Assembly (NCBI GenBank): GCA_002780065.1
Contig: PEWQ01000004.1
Span: 1 to 5,771 of the forward strand
Source: Candidatus Hydrogenedentes bacterium CG07_land_8_20_14_0_80_42_17
GTDB taxonomy: Bacteria > UBA8481
Reading direction: 5' to 3'
Length of the DNA: 5,771 bases
In this document: one piece after another, positions 1 to 5,766 of the stretch
Numbering within the stretch: the stretch's first letter is position 1
How the letters are laid out: every line of letters begins with the position of its first letter
Made by a program: the position numbers and the translations under genes
Notes under the pieces: generated by a model
The model's database searches: none
Told to the model about the DNA's origin: nothing
Seen by the model: the letters and a program-made list of their open reading frames with translations, nothing else

Positions 1-15
1 ACACAGGTTCGCCCC
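1..15. repeat. Right half of a REP-like palindrome inside the transposase gene
   Basis: The window opens with ACACAG followed by GTTCGCCCC (7-15). GTTCGCCC at 7-14 is identical to 274-281, the right arm of the complete hairpin near the gatA start. The matching left arm (GGGGCGAAC) would lie just outside the window, with ACACAG as the loop. Here the repeat is translated as part of the transposase (residues TGSPL), in the linker before the helix carrying the probable catalytic tyrosine. That this is half of a palindrome is inferred from the second copy, since the left arm is not visible. Confidence 0.55.
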
Positions 16-230
16 TACAGCGAATTATTCAATGGTTTAAAACGATGACAACAAATGATTATATCAAAAATGTAAAAAAAAATAATTGGATACCATTTGA
101 TAAAAAATTTTGGCAACGCAATTATTATGAACACATCATTCGAAACGAAAAGGATTTAAACAAAATAAGGGAATATTCTATCTGCAATCCTGCCAATTGG
201 AAAACCGATGAAAATTATTGTTCGTTGTGA
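3..230 (+). CDS. REP-associated tyrosine transposase (Y1/IS200-like), C-terminal part, cut by the window edge
   Basis: The reading frame is open from the left edge to the TGA at 228-230, so this is the last ~75 codons of a longer gene. The ATG at 45 is internal, not a start. The residues IIQWFKTMTTNDYI (codons from 24), FWQRNYYEHIIRNE and LNKIREYSICNPANW are characteristic of the C-terminal half of RAYT proteins, single-strand DNA HUH transposases associated with palindromic REP sequences. The paired tyrosines of the NYYEH segment lie where the family places its catalytic tyrosine; which of the two is used I cannot say. The HUH histidines would lie upstream, outside the window. The usual REYIIxNP segment reads REYSICNP here, a small departure. 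The coding sequence is noticeably more AT-rich than the genes downstream, which fits a transferred element. It ends 12 bp before gatA and in the same frame. Whether the full gene is intact cannot be judged. Confidence 0.85.
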   Translation, partial: TGSPLQRIIQWFKTMTTNDYIKNVKKNNWIPFDKKFWQRNYYEHIIRNEKDLNKIREYSICNPANWKTDENYCSL

Positions 231-235
231 GGAGG
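231..235 (+). promoter_or_regulatory. Shine-Dalgarno that fixes the TTG start of gatA
   Basis: GGAGG follows immediately after the transposase stop codon (TGA 228-230) and sits 7 nt before the TTG at 243. This is the only good ribosome binding site near the start of the gatA frame. The later in-frame TTG codons at 282 and 291 are preceded by the hairpin arm and have no purine-rich motif. No promoter is recognisable between the transposase and gatA, so transcription may come from upstream. Confidence 0.75.
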
Positions 236-242
236 CAAAATT

Positions 243-1685
243 TTGAATCCTTACAATAATGGCGAACACGTATGTTCGCCCTTGCGATTTTTGCTAAAAG
301 GAATTTCTGCCGGCGATTTTTCTTCGCAAGAAGTGATCGATCATTATAAATCTCGAATCGAAAAATTTAATCAAAAGCTCGGAGCATTTTTATTTCTGAA
401 TCCAAGCGATTCATTTGAAGATGGAAGCCTAAAGGGAATACCAATCGGCTTGAAGGATAATCTCGTCACAAAAGATATGCCGACGACATGCGCTTCGAAA
501 ATTCTCAAAGGATATATTCCTCCTTATGATGCTCATGTTGTAAGCCGACTACGCTCGAGCGGCGCATGGTTCCCGGGCAAACTCAACATGGACGAATTTG
601 CGATGGGGTCGTCGAACGAATATTCTGCGTTTTCGCCTGTTCGTAATCCATGGAATCTCGATTGTGTTCCCGGCGGTTCGAGCGGAGGATCTGCCGCCAG
701 CGTTGCCGCGGGACTTGTGCCTGCCGCTCTTGGTTCGGACACAGGCGGCTCGATTCGTCAGCCTGCTTCATTTTGCGGAGTAACAGGTCTGAAGCCTACT
801 TACGGCAGGGTATCGAGATACGGGCTTATTGCGTTTGCATCGTCTCTGGATCAAATCGGCACTTTTACTCGAACCGCTGAGGATGCGGCTCTGCTTCTTT
901 CAATAATATCCGGTCATGATCAAAAAGATTCCACATCGGCAAATGTCGACCTTCCGGATTTTTCGGCGCAACTGACGGGAAATATAAAAGGATTGAAGAT
1001 TGGATTGCCGAAGGAATATTTTTCTACAGGACTTTCTGATGAAGTTGAATCGGCTGTAAAAAAAGCTGTGACGGATTTGGAAAAAGAAGGAGCTGTAGTT
1101 GAAGAGGTATCGCTTCCTCATTCGAAATATGCAGTTGCGGTTTATTATCTTGTCGCAACTGCGGAAGCCTCTTCCAATCTGGCGCGCTTTGATGGTATGA
1201 GATACGGACTGCGCGTTGAAGACGGAGCTCTCATTCCGACTTATGAGAAGACTCGCGGAACAGGCTTCGGTGCTGAAGTAAAACGAAGGATAATGCTCGG
1301 CACCTATGCGCTCTCCGCAGGCTATTACGATGCCTTTTACAAAAAAGCTCTGCAGGTGAGAACTCTTATTCAGCGAGATTTTATCTCCGCTTTCGAGAAG
1401 TTTGACATTATAGCGGCGCCGACTACTCCGACAACGGCTTTCAAACTAGGAGAAAATTTAAGTGATCCTCTGACAATGTATTTACAGGATATTTATACGA
1501 TATCTGCAAATCTCGCCGGCCTTCCGGCAATTTCTATTCCATGCGGATTCTCGAAAGAAAATCTGCCGATCGGTCTTCAGATGATCGGTAAACCGTTTGC
1601 AGAGTCCGAAATTCTCAAAGCAGCTGATGCTTATCAGAGAATAACTGACTGGCATTTGCGGCGACCGCGGGAGTTTGACGAATGA
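243..1685 (+). CDS. gatA: Asp-tRNA(Asn)/Glu-tRNA(Gln) amidotransferase subunit A (amidase subunit)
   Basis: GatA hydrolyses glutamine and passes the ammonia to GatB, which converts mischarged Asp-tRNA(Asn) or Glu-tRNA(Gln) to the amide form in the cytoplasm. The amidase-signature Ser-cisSer-Lys triad is complete: K71 in [10 protein letters not shown]146 in [10 protein letters not shown] (144-152) and S170 in [12 protein letters not shown]. Their spacing equals that of the S. aureus enzyme (K79/S154/S178, from memory). Other family segments are [49 protein letters not shown] (408-413) and [13 protein letters not shown]. At 480 aa the length is normal. The start is a TTG chosen for the GGAGG 7 nt upstream. 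Residues 1-13 have no family counterpart and partly encode the REP-like hairpin; homology begins near residue 14. The stretch between the first helix and the catalytic lysine (about 52-64) is around 14 residues shorter than in S. aureus GatA. The stop overlaps the gatB start as ATGA, so the two are probably translationally coupled. No gatC is visible upstream. Confidence 0.96.
261..280. repeat. REP-like perfect hairpin inside the 5' end of gatA
   Basis: GGCGAACA (261-268) and TGTTCGCC (273-280) are perfect inverted repeats of 8 bp around a CGTA loop. The sequence continues as CTTGCGA. The right arm shares GTTCGCCC with the repeat at 7-14 inside the adjacent transposase. RAYT transposases are known to be associated with short palindromes of this kind, often flanking their gene. 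The hairpin is read in frame as residues GEHVCSP of GatA and lies about 18 nt downstream of the start codon. Confidence 0.75.
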
Positions 1686-3121
1686 GCAGGAATAGTTACG
1701 AGCCGGTCATCGGGCTCGAGGTGCATGTTCATCTGAAGACGAAGACAAAGATCTTCTGCTCATGCCCGAATCGATTCGGAGACGAACCGAACACAAACGT
1801 ATGCCCGGTCTGCCTTGCTCTGCCCGGATCTTTGCCGGTATTGAATAGACATGCTTTGGAATTAGCAACGCTCGCAGCTCTGGCTTTGAGCGGAAATATT
1901 TCTTCACGAATGAAGTTCGATCGCAAAAATTATTTCTATCCTGATCTTCCGAAGAATTATCAGATTTCACAATTCGATATGCCGCTCTCGATTGGCGGCG
2001 GAGTGAAACTTTCTAACGGAAGAACGATAGCTCTTACTCGAATACACATGGAAGAAGACGCTGGAAAACTTTTGCATACTGCGGAGAATCTGGACGAGTC
2101 TGAATATACGCGCGTCGATTTGAACCGCGCCGGCGCTCCGCTGATAGAAATAGTTTCCGAACCTGAAATAAAAACTCCTGATGATGCGCACGAATACCTT
2201 ACGAATCTTAAACAGATATTGGAATATTGCGGAGTGTCCGATTGCAACATGGAGGAGGGAAGTCTCCGCTGTGACGCGAACATTTCTATTCGTCCTATTG
2301 GCGAAACTAAACTCGGAGTGAAGGTCGAAGTCAAGAACATGAATTCATTCAAGGCTGTGCGGGACGCTTTACGTCATGAGATAGACCGTCAGATCGAGGC
2401 AGTGAATGCCGGGAAGAAGATAGTTCAAGAGACGAGGCTGTGGGATGCAGGACTAGGTACGACTCGAAGCATGAGAGGAAAGGAAGAGTCTCACGATTAC
2501 AGATATTTTCCTGATCCTGATCTTGTCGTATTCACTCTTGAAAAAGATTTCATCGAATCGATTCGAAAAAAACTTCCTGAGATGCCGAAAGAGAGGTCGA
2601 AGCGGTTCGAATTAGATTATGGTTTAACTCAGAGAGATGCGGGCATTTTGACTCAACATAGAGATCTCGCAGATTATTTCGATGAGGCTGTAAAATTATA
2701 TTCGGTTGGAGCAAAGGCTATTGCGAATTGGATGCTAACGGAATTATTGAGAGTGATTCCTGAAGGAGAATCTTATTCGTCAAAGATTAAACCGAAAGAT
2801 TTTGTCGAGCTGATTAAACTTATTGATGAAGGAACTATTTCAGGAAAGATAGCGAAGGAGATTTTTTCAGTTATGGCTTCGACAGGAAAGGCTCCGCGCG
2901 ATATAGTTGCTTCGCAAGGTTTAACTCAGATTAGCGATGAGTCATCAATTGAGAAGATCTGCAGAGAAGTGATGACAGAGAATCCAAATCCGGTTGAGCA
3001 GTTCAGGGCTGGTAAAAAAAATTCAATAGGATTTCTTGTTGGAGCTGTTATGAAGAAGACGAGCGGAAAAGCAAATCCGCAATTGGTTAATAAAATTTTC
3101 GGGAGGCTTTTGAATGAGTGA
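1682..3121 (+). CDS. gatB: Asp-tRNA(Asn)/Glu-tRNA(Gln) amidotransferase subunit B
   Basis: GatB binds the mischarged tRNA, activates the Asp or Glu side chain with ATP, and uses ammonia channelled from GatA. The cradle domain opens with [18 protein letters not shown]. Four cysteines, C26 and C28 (CSCP) and C41 and C44 (CPVC), form the zinc site found in many GatB proteins but lost in some, such as that of S. aureus. Catalytic-core motifs follow: [27 protein letters not shown] (122-129, the metal/ATP region), [31 protein letters not shown] and DYRYFPDPD (272-280). The helical and YqeY-like tail, which contacts the tRNA, runs from about residue 300 to the end, with [20 protein letters not shown] near the C-terminus. 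At 479 aa it is full length. Its ATG overlaps the gatA stop, with GGGAG at 1669-1673 as ribosome binding site 8 nt upstream. Sequence alone does not decide between Asn and Gln specificity; the glnS gene downstream favours Asn. Confidence 0.97.
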
Positions 3122-3539
3122 TTCTGTAAAGAACTCAGGCCCTTCATATTTCATGTCGGCTATCGGCGGACTTTTTCTTGGAGTGCTCGGAGCCGCAATA
3201 ATGATTATTTTTCCTGAGCAGAAATGGATAGCAGGTATTGTTCCTTTGTTCTGCATATTTGCGTCCGTGCTTGGAACTTATATTGCGGCGGAGCCTTACG
3301 ATGAATTGCGTGAAAGATACGATAAACTGACGTCAGATGGACTCAACGCTGTGACTCCTCAAGAAAATTTTGCGCTCGGTGAAATTAAAAAAAGTATCGA
3401 AGAAGAGGGAGCCAGATTAGTTAAGAAAGCGGCAGAGCTTGGGGAAGACGGCGTAGAATTGGCGAAAGCCGGAGACGAATTCAGGATGATAATCAAAAAA
3501 ATTGAAGATTTGAATGAATCGAAACAAAAAGAAATGTAA
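3114..3539 (+). CDS. Small two-helix membrane protein of unknown function with a charged helical tail
   Basis: I do not recognise this 141-aa protein. Two hydrophobic segments are clear: about residues 11-33 (FMSAIGGLFLGVLGAAIMII) and 38-59 (WIAGIVPLFCIFASVLGTYI), separated by a tight PEQK turn, so it probably forms an inner-membrane hairpin. From residue 60 on the protein is strongly charged and predicted helical, with a possible coiled coil around 86-141 (many E/K, hydrophobic residues at heptad-like spacing). Both ends are probably cytoplasmic, which is inference from topology. There is no signal peptide and no catalytic motif. The gene is real by context: the ATG lies 7 nt after GGGAGG (3101-3106) and overlaps the end of gatB by 8 bp, so it is likely co-translated with gatAB. 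Nothing in the sequence links it mechanistically to tRNA amidation. No intrinsic terminator is visible after it, before the flgM promoter. Confidence 0.85.
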   Translation: MSDSVKNSGPSYFMSAIGGLFLGVLGAAIMIIFPEQKWIAGIVPLFCIFASVLGTYIAAEPYDELRERYDKLTSDGLNAVTPQENFALGEIKKSIEEEGARLVKKAAELGEDGVELAKAGDEFRMIIKKIEDLNESKQKEM

Positions 3540-4047: not shown

Positions 4048-5766
4048 ATGAATTCAGACGAATTGATTTTAAAGAACGAACCAAAGCGGAACTTCATACA
4101 CGAAATAATAGATCGTGATAAAGAAGCCGGAGCCTCAGCGGTTGTAACTCGGTTTCCTCCGGAGCCGAATGGCTATCTCCATATTGGACATGCAAAGTCT
4201 ATATGCTTAAACTTTGGGCTTGCGAAGGAATATTCAGGGAGATGTCATCTCCGATTCGACGATACAAATCCAAGCAAAGAGAATACGAAATATATCGAGT
4301 CAATAAAAGAGGATATAAAGTGGTTGGGATTTGATTGGAGCGAGCACTTGTATTTTGCTTCCAATTATTTCGACAAGCTTTACGAATGGGCGAAGGCTCT
4401 GATTAGAGCAGGGAAGGCGTACGTTTGCGATTTGCCGCCTGAAGAGGTAAGCAAGACCCGAGGAACTCTGACTGAACCTGGAACTGAAAGCCCATACAGA
4501 AATCGTTCGATTGATGAGAATCTAGATTTATTCGAGCGGATGAAGAGCGGCGAATTTCCCGACGGTTCAAAAACTTTGCGGGCAAAGATAGACATGAAAT
4601 CTTCGTTCATGGTTCTTCGCGACCCGGTAATGTACAGGATTTTACGGGTCACGCATCATCGCACCGGAGATAAATGGTGCATATATCCGACCTATGATTG
4701 GACTCATGGTCAGAGCGACTGGAATGAGGGAATTACTCATTCTATCTGCACATTGGAATTCGAAAATAATCGGGCGCTATACGATTGGTTTTTGAGAACT
4801 CTCGAATCATTAGGAGTTGAAACAGGGTCGAAGCGCCTTCCTAAACAGATAGAGTTTGCGCGATTGAATTTGACTCATACTGTGATGAGCAAGCGATGGC
4901 TGTTAGAGCTAGTTGAGCGCGGAGTTGTCGACGGCTGGGACGATCCAAGAATGCCTACACTTGCAGGTTTGAGAAGGCGAGGCTTTACTCCGGAATCGAT
5001 ACGAGATTTTTGCGAACGTATCGGAGTTGCAAAGACTAACAGTATTGTCGAGCTTGCTCTTTTGGAGCATTGCGCAAGGCAGGATTTAAACAGGCGAGCA
5101 GAGAGGCGTATGGCTGTTTTAAAGCCATTGAAGATTACTCTTACAAATTATCCTGAAGATAAAATTGACAAGTTTGAGGTGAAGAACAATCCTGATGATG
5201 AGTCAGCTGGCACGCGAAATTTAATTTTCAGCAGAGAGATATTTATTGAAGAAGACGATTTCAGAGAAAATCCGCCGAAACATTTTTTTAGATTGATGCC
5301 GGGTGGAGAGGTCAGATTGAAGGATGCGTACATAATAAAATGCAATGAGGCAGTGAAAGATTCTTCAGGAAAAATTGTTGAGCTACTTTGCACTGTTGAT
5401 CCTGACTCACGCGGAGGTCAGTCTGCCTCAGGAAAAAAAGTGAAGAGCACTTTGCATTGGGTCTCAGCAAAGTATTCTGAATCCGCAGAAGCGAGGCTAT
5501 ACAATCCGTTGTTTTTGACTCCGAATCCGTACGATTTTCCGAAAGGTCAAGATCTGCTTTTTAATTTAAATTCAGATTCGATGGAGATTTTGAAGGACTG
5601 CAGAATCGAGAAAGAACTGGCGTCGGCAAAGCCTGGAGAAAGTTATCAATTCATGAGGTTGGGATATTTTTGCGTCGATTCAAGAAATTGTGTTCCAGGG
5701 CATTTAGTTTTCAATCAAACGGTAACTTTGAAGGATGATCTAGCTAGAGTGGAAAAAAAGAAGTAG
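4048..5766 (+). CDS. glnS: Glutaminyl-tRNA synthetase
   Basis: GlnRS is a cytoplasmic class I aminoacyl-tRNA synthetase that joins glutamine to tRNA(Gln) with ATP. The catalytic Rossmann fold shows [16 protein letters not shown] with HIGH at 45-48, [11 protein letters not shown] (68-78) and the KMSKS-type loop VMSKR at 279-283. VMSKR followed by [17 protein letters not shown] is the GlnRS form rather than that of Glu[12 protein letters not shown] and [16 protein letters not shown] match the acceptor-binding region and GlnRS active site. The two-beta-barrel anticodon-binding domain runs from about residue 355 to the end ([58 protein letters not shown]). At 572 aa it is close to E. coli GlnRS (about 554), and no YqeY/GatB-like appendix as in Deinococcus is present. 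The gene is complete, ending in TAG. AGGAG 6 nt before the ATG supports the start. It is preceded by its own promoter and is not in an operon within the window. Confidence 0.97.

Follow-up and report, generated by a model that had tools for sequence, protein, structure and literature searches.

The window, the whole 5,771-nt stretch of DNA analysed here, opens contig C17 of a metagenome-assembled genome (2.39 Mb, 207 contigs, 87% complete) of a Candidatus Hydrogenedentes bacterium. The plus strand carries gatA (243..1685), which starts at a TTG codon and encodes subunit A of the Asp/Glu-tRNA amidotransferase (TIGR00132, 616.6 bits against a cut-off of 481.1; Amidase, PF01425), followed, with a 4-nt overlap, by gatB (1682..3121; PF02934 and PF02637). 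The order gatC, gatA, gatB, a 141-aa ORF and flgM is the same in G001, the sole other genome of the phylum compared. The 141-aa ORF, at 3114-3539 between gatB and flgM, has no Pfam match and keeps its position in G001. A gene for glutaminyl-tRNA synthetase (GlnRS) lies in the same stretch at 4048-5766, and no AsnRS in this 87% complete genome scored above the family cut-off; GatCAB may therefore serve Asn-tRNA here, and for the same reason gatA is probably needed in the host. Immediately upstream of gatA, at 3..230 of the same strand, is the C-terminal half of a REP-associated tyrosine transposase (RAYT/TnpAREP), and a REP palindrome lies within the first codons of gatA itself.

The RAYT gene is split by a contig break. 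Its C-terminal half matches profile positions 71-132 of NCBIfam NF047646 (E 4.6e-9) and scores 36.3 bits by itself against the curated cut-off of 80, in a gene divided between two contigs and with a model that has no linker. The N-terminal half matches the complementary positions 7-63 and lies at the end of contig C143, where the order read directly from the sequence is gatC (PF02686), the RAYT N-terminal half, whose GTG overlaps the gatC stop (TTGTGA), and tandem REPs. The reading frame is continuous from C143 to C17 provided that the join lacks exactly one base. Furthermore, the contig break truncates a REP copy within the RAYT coding sequence; its right part, ACACAGGTTCGCCCCTAC, forms the first 18 bases of the window (1..18, + strand), and it is of the same CACACAGG variant as the two complete tandem copies that end C143; the repeat that the initial annotation had noticed inside the transposase is thus real. 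A chimeric contig formed in repeats, which would place a RAYT end before gatA by misassembly, would be in keeping with two contigs that each end in repeats and with an assembly in 207 pieces. Such an artefact is very unlikely, since the join reunites gatC and gatA, which are neighbours in G001, the CACACAGG variant is found in this genome only at the end of C143 and the start of C17, and the two RAYT halves are complementary. We infer, with near certainty, that the gene order across C143 and C17 is gatC-RAYT-gatA-gatB.

The motifs PNHVH and FWQ are present in the joined protein, and the tyrosine motif reads YSICNP, compared with NH[IFV]H, WQ and YIxNNP in TnpAREP subclass 2.4 (RAYT group 4; PMC6006769), with which it shares the NHVH and WQ motifs. 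Within the linker are a REP of a second type, GTAGGTGCAGACCTATGTGTCTGCCC, and an in-frame tandem unit of 63 bp that contains GGGCGAACACACAGGTTCGCCCCTAC and encodes GEHTGSPLRKSGECNQGEWNQ (L155:4330-4499, equivalent to C143:9329-9498). Of about 20 related RAYT loci, most also have REPs in frame in the linker. They were considered as a new feature and set aside as such, REPs inside RAYTs of subclass 2.4 having already been described (Quentin et al. 2018, PMC6006769). What differs from that description is that the internal REP here is a 63-bp tandem array and that the ORF lies in a gat operon, where its start overlaps the gatC stop and its end adjoins the gatA Shine-Dalgarno sequence. Other RAYTs of the same genome (L161:769-1407 and L162) have different in-frame linker repeats, HRPVQ and HESPL, and RAYTs of other phyla (L183-L207) have one or two GTAG/CTAC-tagged palindromes in frame in the same linker, with arms that differ between genes.

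The REP in gatA occupies 261..281 (+ strand) and reads in frame as codons 7-13, G-E-H-V-C-S-P. Its palindrome at 261-280, GGCGAACACGTATGTTCGCC, has exact 8-bp arms around a CGTA loop, in agreement with the initial annotation, and begins 18 nt into the coding sequence rather than, as had been stated, about 18 nt into the message. The surrounding segment (255-290) folds at -12.0 kcal/mol, the stem length lies within the 5-13 bp range of GTAG-type REPs, and the palindrome pattern, with up to three mismatches allowed, would be expected by chance 0.01 times in the window. That the palindrome might be unique had been named as a ground for rejecting its mobile origin; it is not unique. The core pattern GGCGAACA-N(0-10)-GTTCGCC occurs at 13 places in the genome and its reversed control at none, and a looser pattern, with the consensus GTAGGGGCGAACCTATGTGTTCGCCC, recovers about 30 copies, many of them tandem, spread over about 17 loci, a count that takes in weaker one-mismatch places, partly at background, of which the control gives some too. 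Three family members lie on C143, which precedes C17, and copies are found upstream of gatC, within the RAYT gene and 30 nt past its end in gatA. The copy at C143:8693 (CACGTAGG) differs from the gatA copy by one base; the two flank the RAYT gene in direct orientation, with gatC between them. At 282..285 (+ strand), where the tag CTAC (the reverse complement of GTAG) is expected, the gatA copy reads TTGC, compared with GGCGAACACACAGGTTCGCCCCTACGC in the RAYT copies, so that its foot reads GCAA where most other family copies have GTAG; the change from CTA to TTG is synonymous (Leu). On this evidence the gatA repeat does belong to a family of GTAG-type REPs, and because its tag is degenerate the exact limits of the inserted segment are uncertain.

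A search of 290 genomes recovered the full form of the repeat with the CTAC tag in 18, counting this one; the others all belong to other phyla. It is absent from G001, and no similar DNA was found in the phages searched. A comparison with relatives that lack the transposase had been proposed as a check, and in G001, the one such relative compared, the gatA start has no palindrome. Elsewhere in the genome, a further copy (C118:4120, L138) lies near the 3' end of an ORF, at about codon 405 of 420; the product we take to resemble aminodeoxychorismate/anthranilate synthase component I.

How the repeat sits in the protein was assessed against 80 GatA sequences with a credible start, drawn from genome contigs; these are distant GatAs, fit for start-length statistics and not for use as close relatives. 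The distance from start to conserved core is 20 residues in 48 of the 80, and several of the longer values are alignment artefacts. The window GatA has 26 residues with the repeat and 19 once the seven REP codons are taken away; the insertion is thus seven codons long, yet the excess over the family mode is six. In a MAFFT alignment a six-residue insertion falls inside the REP-encoded stretch, and the initial MNPY is aligned with MNIY, MALY and MDLY of other GatAs, residue 4 being Y or F in 34/80. The initial annotation had held that about 13 codons lack a family counterpart. The TIGR00132 alignment does begin only at residue 24, and residues 1-4 (MNPY) are family-like all the same. By this comparison the extra residues seem to come from the REP, and the preceding codons resemble native ones. 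The main caveat comes from G001, in which GatA reaches the core after 26 residues too, with no REP present, so that the extra length could be ancestral; the extra residues of G001 align at a different place.

Di Nocera et al. (2013, PMC3733652) report GTAG REPs inside many ORFs, more often at N- than at C-termini, and caution that many N-terminal REPs are extragenic, initiation lying downstream, and that some may be untranslated. By analogy, the REP here could lie in an untranslated leader as an mRNA hairpin only, with GatA made from a TTG at 282 or 291. Neither codon has a Shine-Dalgarno sequence, whereas AGGAGG stands at a 7-nt spacing from 243, and the start-to-core distance would fall to 13 or 10 compared with the mode of 20. 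Initiation downstream of the repeat is accordingly very unlikely, and the REP is best taken as coding from the TTG at 243.

The layout of the junction is as first described: the RAYT stop TGA at 228-230 and the gatA TTG at 243 are in the same frame, separated by four codons, and the Shine-Dalgarno sequence AGGAGG occupies 230..235 (+ strand). What finds no support is the claim drawn from it, that the right end of the RAYT element gave gatA its start signals. The sequence TTGTGA at 225..230 (+ strand), which ends the RAYT gene, is identical to the hexamer with which gatC ends on C143 and is probably a target duplication or a junction homology of the insertion; gatC ends in ATATTGTGA, and RAYT in TTCGTTGTGA followed by GGAGGCAAAATT-TTG. 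Removal of the RAYT gene rejoins gatC-TGA|GGAGGCAAAATT-TTG, with a GGAGG Shine-Dalgarno sequence and 15 nt from stop to start, which is the most frequent spacing among the 51 gatC-gatA pairs of the loci examined. Overlaps of stop and Shine-Dalgarno sequence of the TAAGGAGG/TGAGGAGG type are frequent among these junctions (for example TAAGGAGGGAACCGAATG), and the G001 junction, TTGAGGAACCGAATG, has the same overlap (TGAGGA...ATG). From this ordinary spacing and these common overlaps it therefore seems that the RAYT gene entered at the gatC stop and that the Shine-Dalgarno sequence and TTG, judged native to the gatC-gatA junction, were left in place. An inverted 11-nt match, ATTATTGTAAG, between the gatC leader and gatA codons 3-6 was considered as a pair of element ends and rejected, 16-mer near matches being at background level.

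A second hairpin, H1, missed by the initial annotation, spans the junction (224..257, + strand) and encloses the RAYT stop, the Shine-Dalgarno sequence and the gatA TTG. It is separate from the REP hairpin and stronger (-15.4 kcal/mol, z -5.8), with 19-nt arms that are 84% complementary, and none of 200 shuffled sequences was equally stable. A hairpin, TCGGTT-GAGG-AACCGA (-7.4), also covers the equivalent junction in G001. H1 is thus compatible with an old arrangement in which the Shine-Dalgarno sequence is masked and translation coupled, two genomes being weak evidence.

The strongest competitor to independent insertions is a single RAYT element whose right end (about 224-285, comprising H1 and the REP) hit gatA, deleted its old start and now provides the Shine-Dalgarno sequence, the TTG and a 13-codon extension. 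The spread of REP copies from upstream of gatC through RAYT into gatA, with the C143 copy one base off that in gatA, would suit such an element, as would the position of H1 exactly at the RAYT end and the fact that a canonical length of 20 would put the original start close to position 261. The arm of H1, however, pairs slightly better with the end of gatC (11 bp, -16.4) than with the end of RAYT (10 bp, -15.4), TGAGGAGG-N7-TTG at distance 15 is an ordinary gatC-gatA junction, and MNPY resembles native GatA starts. In addition, a 68-nt segment spanning the end of RAYT and the start of gatA occurs once only in the genome; no mobile right end carrying the Shine-Dalgarno sequence and TTG is thus seen, and that candidate was rejected. 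We regard the single-element explanation as unlikely.

Instead, we favor two separate insertions of one REP/RAYT system into the gat operon, with native gatA start signals, and give this reading a probability of about 0.75. A RAYT ORF, probably of TnpAREP subclass 2.4 (RAYT group 4), would have inserted at the gatC stop codon, such that its GTG and the gatC TGA share bases (GTGA) and its TGA stop directly adjoins the native gatA Shine-Dalgarno sequence. In the other event a single REP hairpin would have entered gatA behind roughly codon 6 without shifting the frame, adding about seven residues (GEHVCSP) to a short N-terminal strand that precedes helix 1 and presumably tolerates changes in length. 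What is observed is the family membership of the REP, its in-frame coding, the gene order on each contig and the junction comparison; we infer how the contigs join, in what order and by what mechanism the two events took place, and that they were nearly neutral.

Enclosure of the Shine-Dalgarno sequence and TTG within H1 suggests that gatA translation is coupled to the upstream stop, formerly that of gatC and now that of RAYT. The REP hairpin had been proposed to affect initiation. In predicted folds it leaves the pairing of the Shine-Dalgarno sequence and start unchanged (unpaired 0.33 and 0.10 whether or not the repeat is included), because H1 dominates, and an effect of the REP on initiation is therefore without support here. 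A more elaborate possibility, which we consider doubtful, is that RAYT acts as a translational relay, its GTG being coupled to the gatC stop and its own stop within H1 opening the gatA Shine-Dalgarno sequence, with the REP isolating H1. If so, GatA production, and hence the supply of amidated tRNA, would depend on translating a transposase gene.

The insertions are ordinary in kind and of an already described type; what is unusual is where they lie, the RAYT exactly at a stop codon inside an operon and the REP within the start of the following gene. Like the intragenic GTAG REPs described in PMC3733652, the gatA repeat is a palindrome lying wholly within a conserved ORF, in frame and near the N-terminus, and translation-related genes are among the targets reported there, as gatA is here. 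It differs in that gatA is not among the targets named in the text and in its tag, decayed to TTGC (GCAA). Rickettsia palindromic elements, as cited in the same paper, are also short in-frame palindromes in protein genes and seemingly tolerated. They carry CGTC tags and have no known transposase, whereas the repeat here is of the GTAG kind and lies beside a RAYT.

Thus the suspicion of a REP beside a RAYT inside the gatA coding start was well founded, and the view that gatA owes its start signals to the element is corrected. The locus represents a case in which a REP is tolerated in the coding start of a single-copy, probably needed gene. The placement of the RAYT exactly at a stop codon, with operon coupling kept, bears on how REP/RAYT systems may spread without killing their host.
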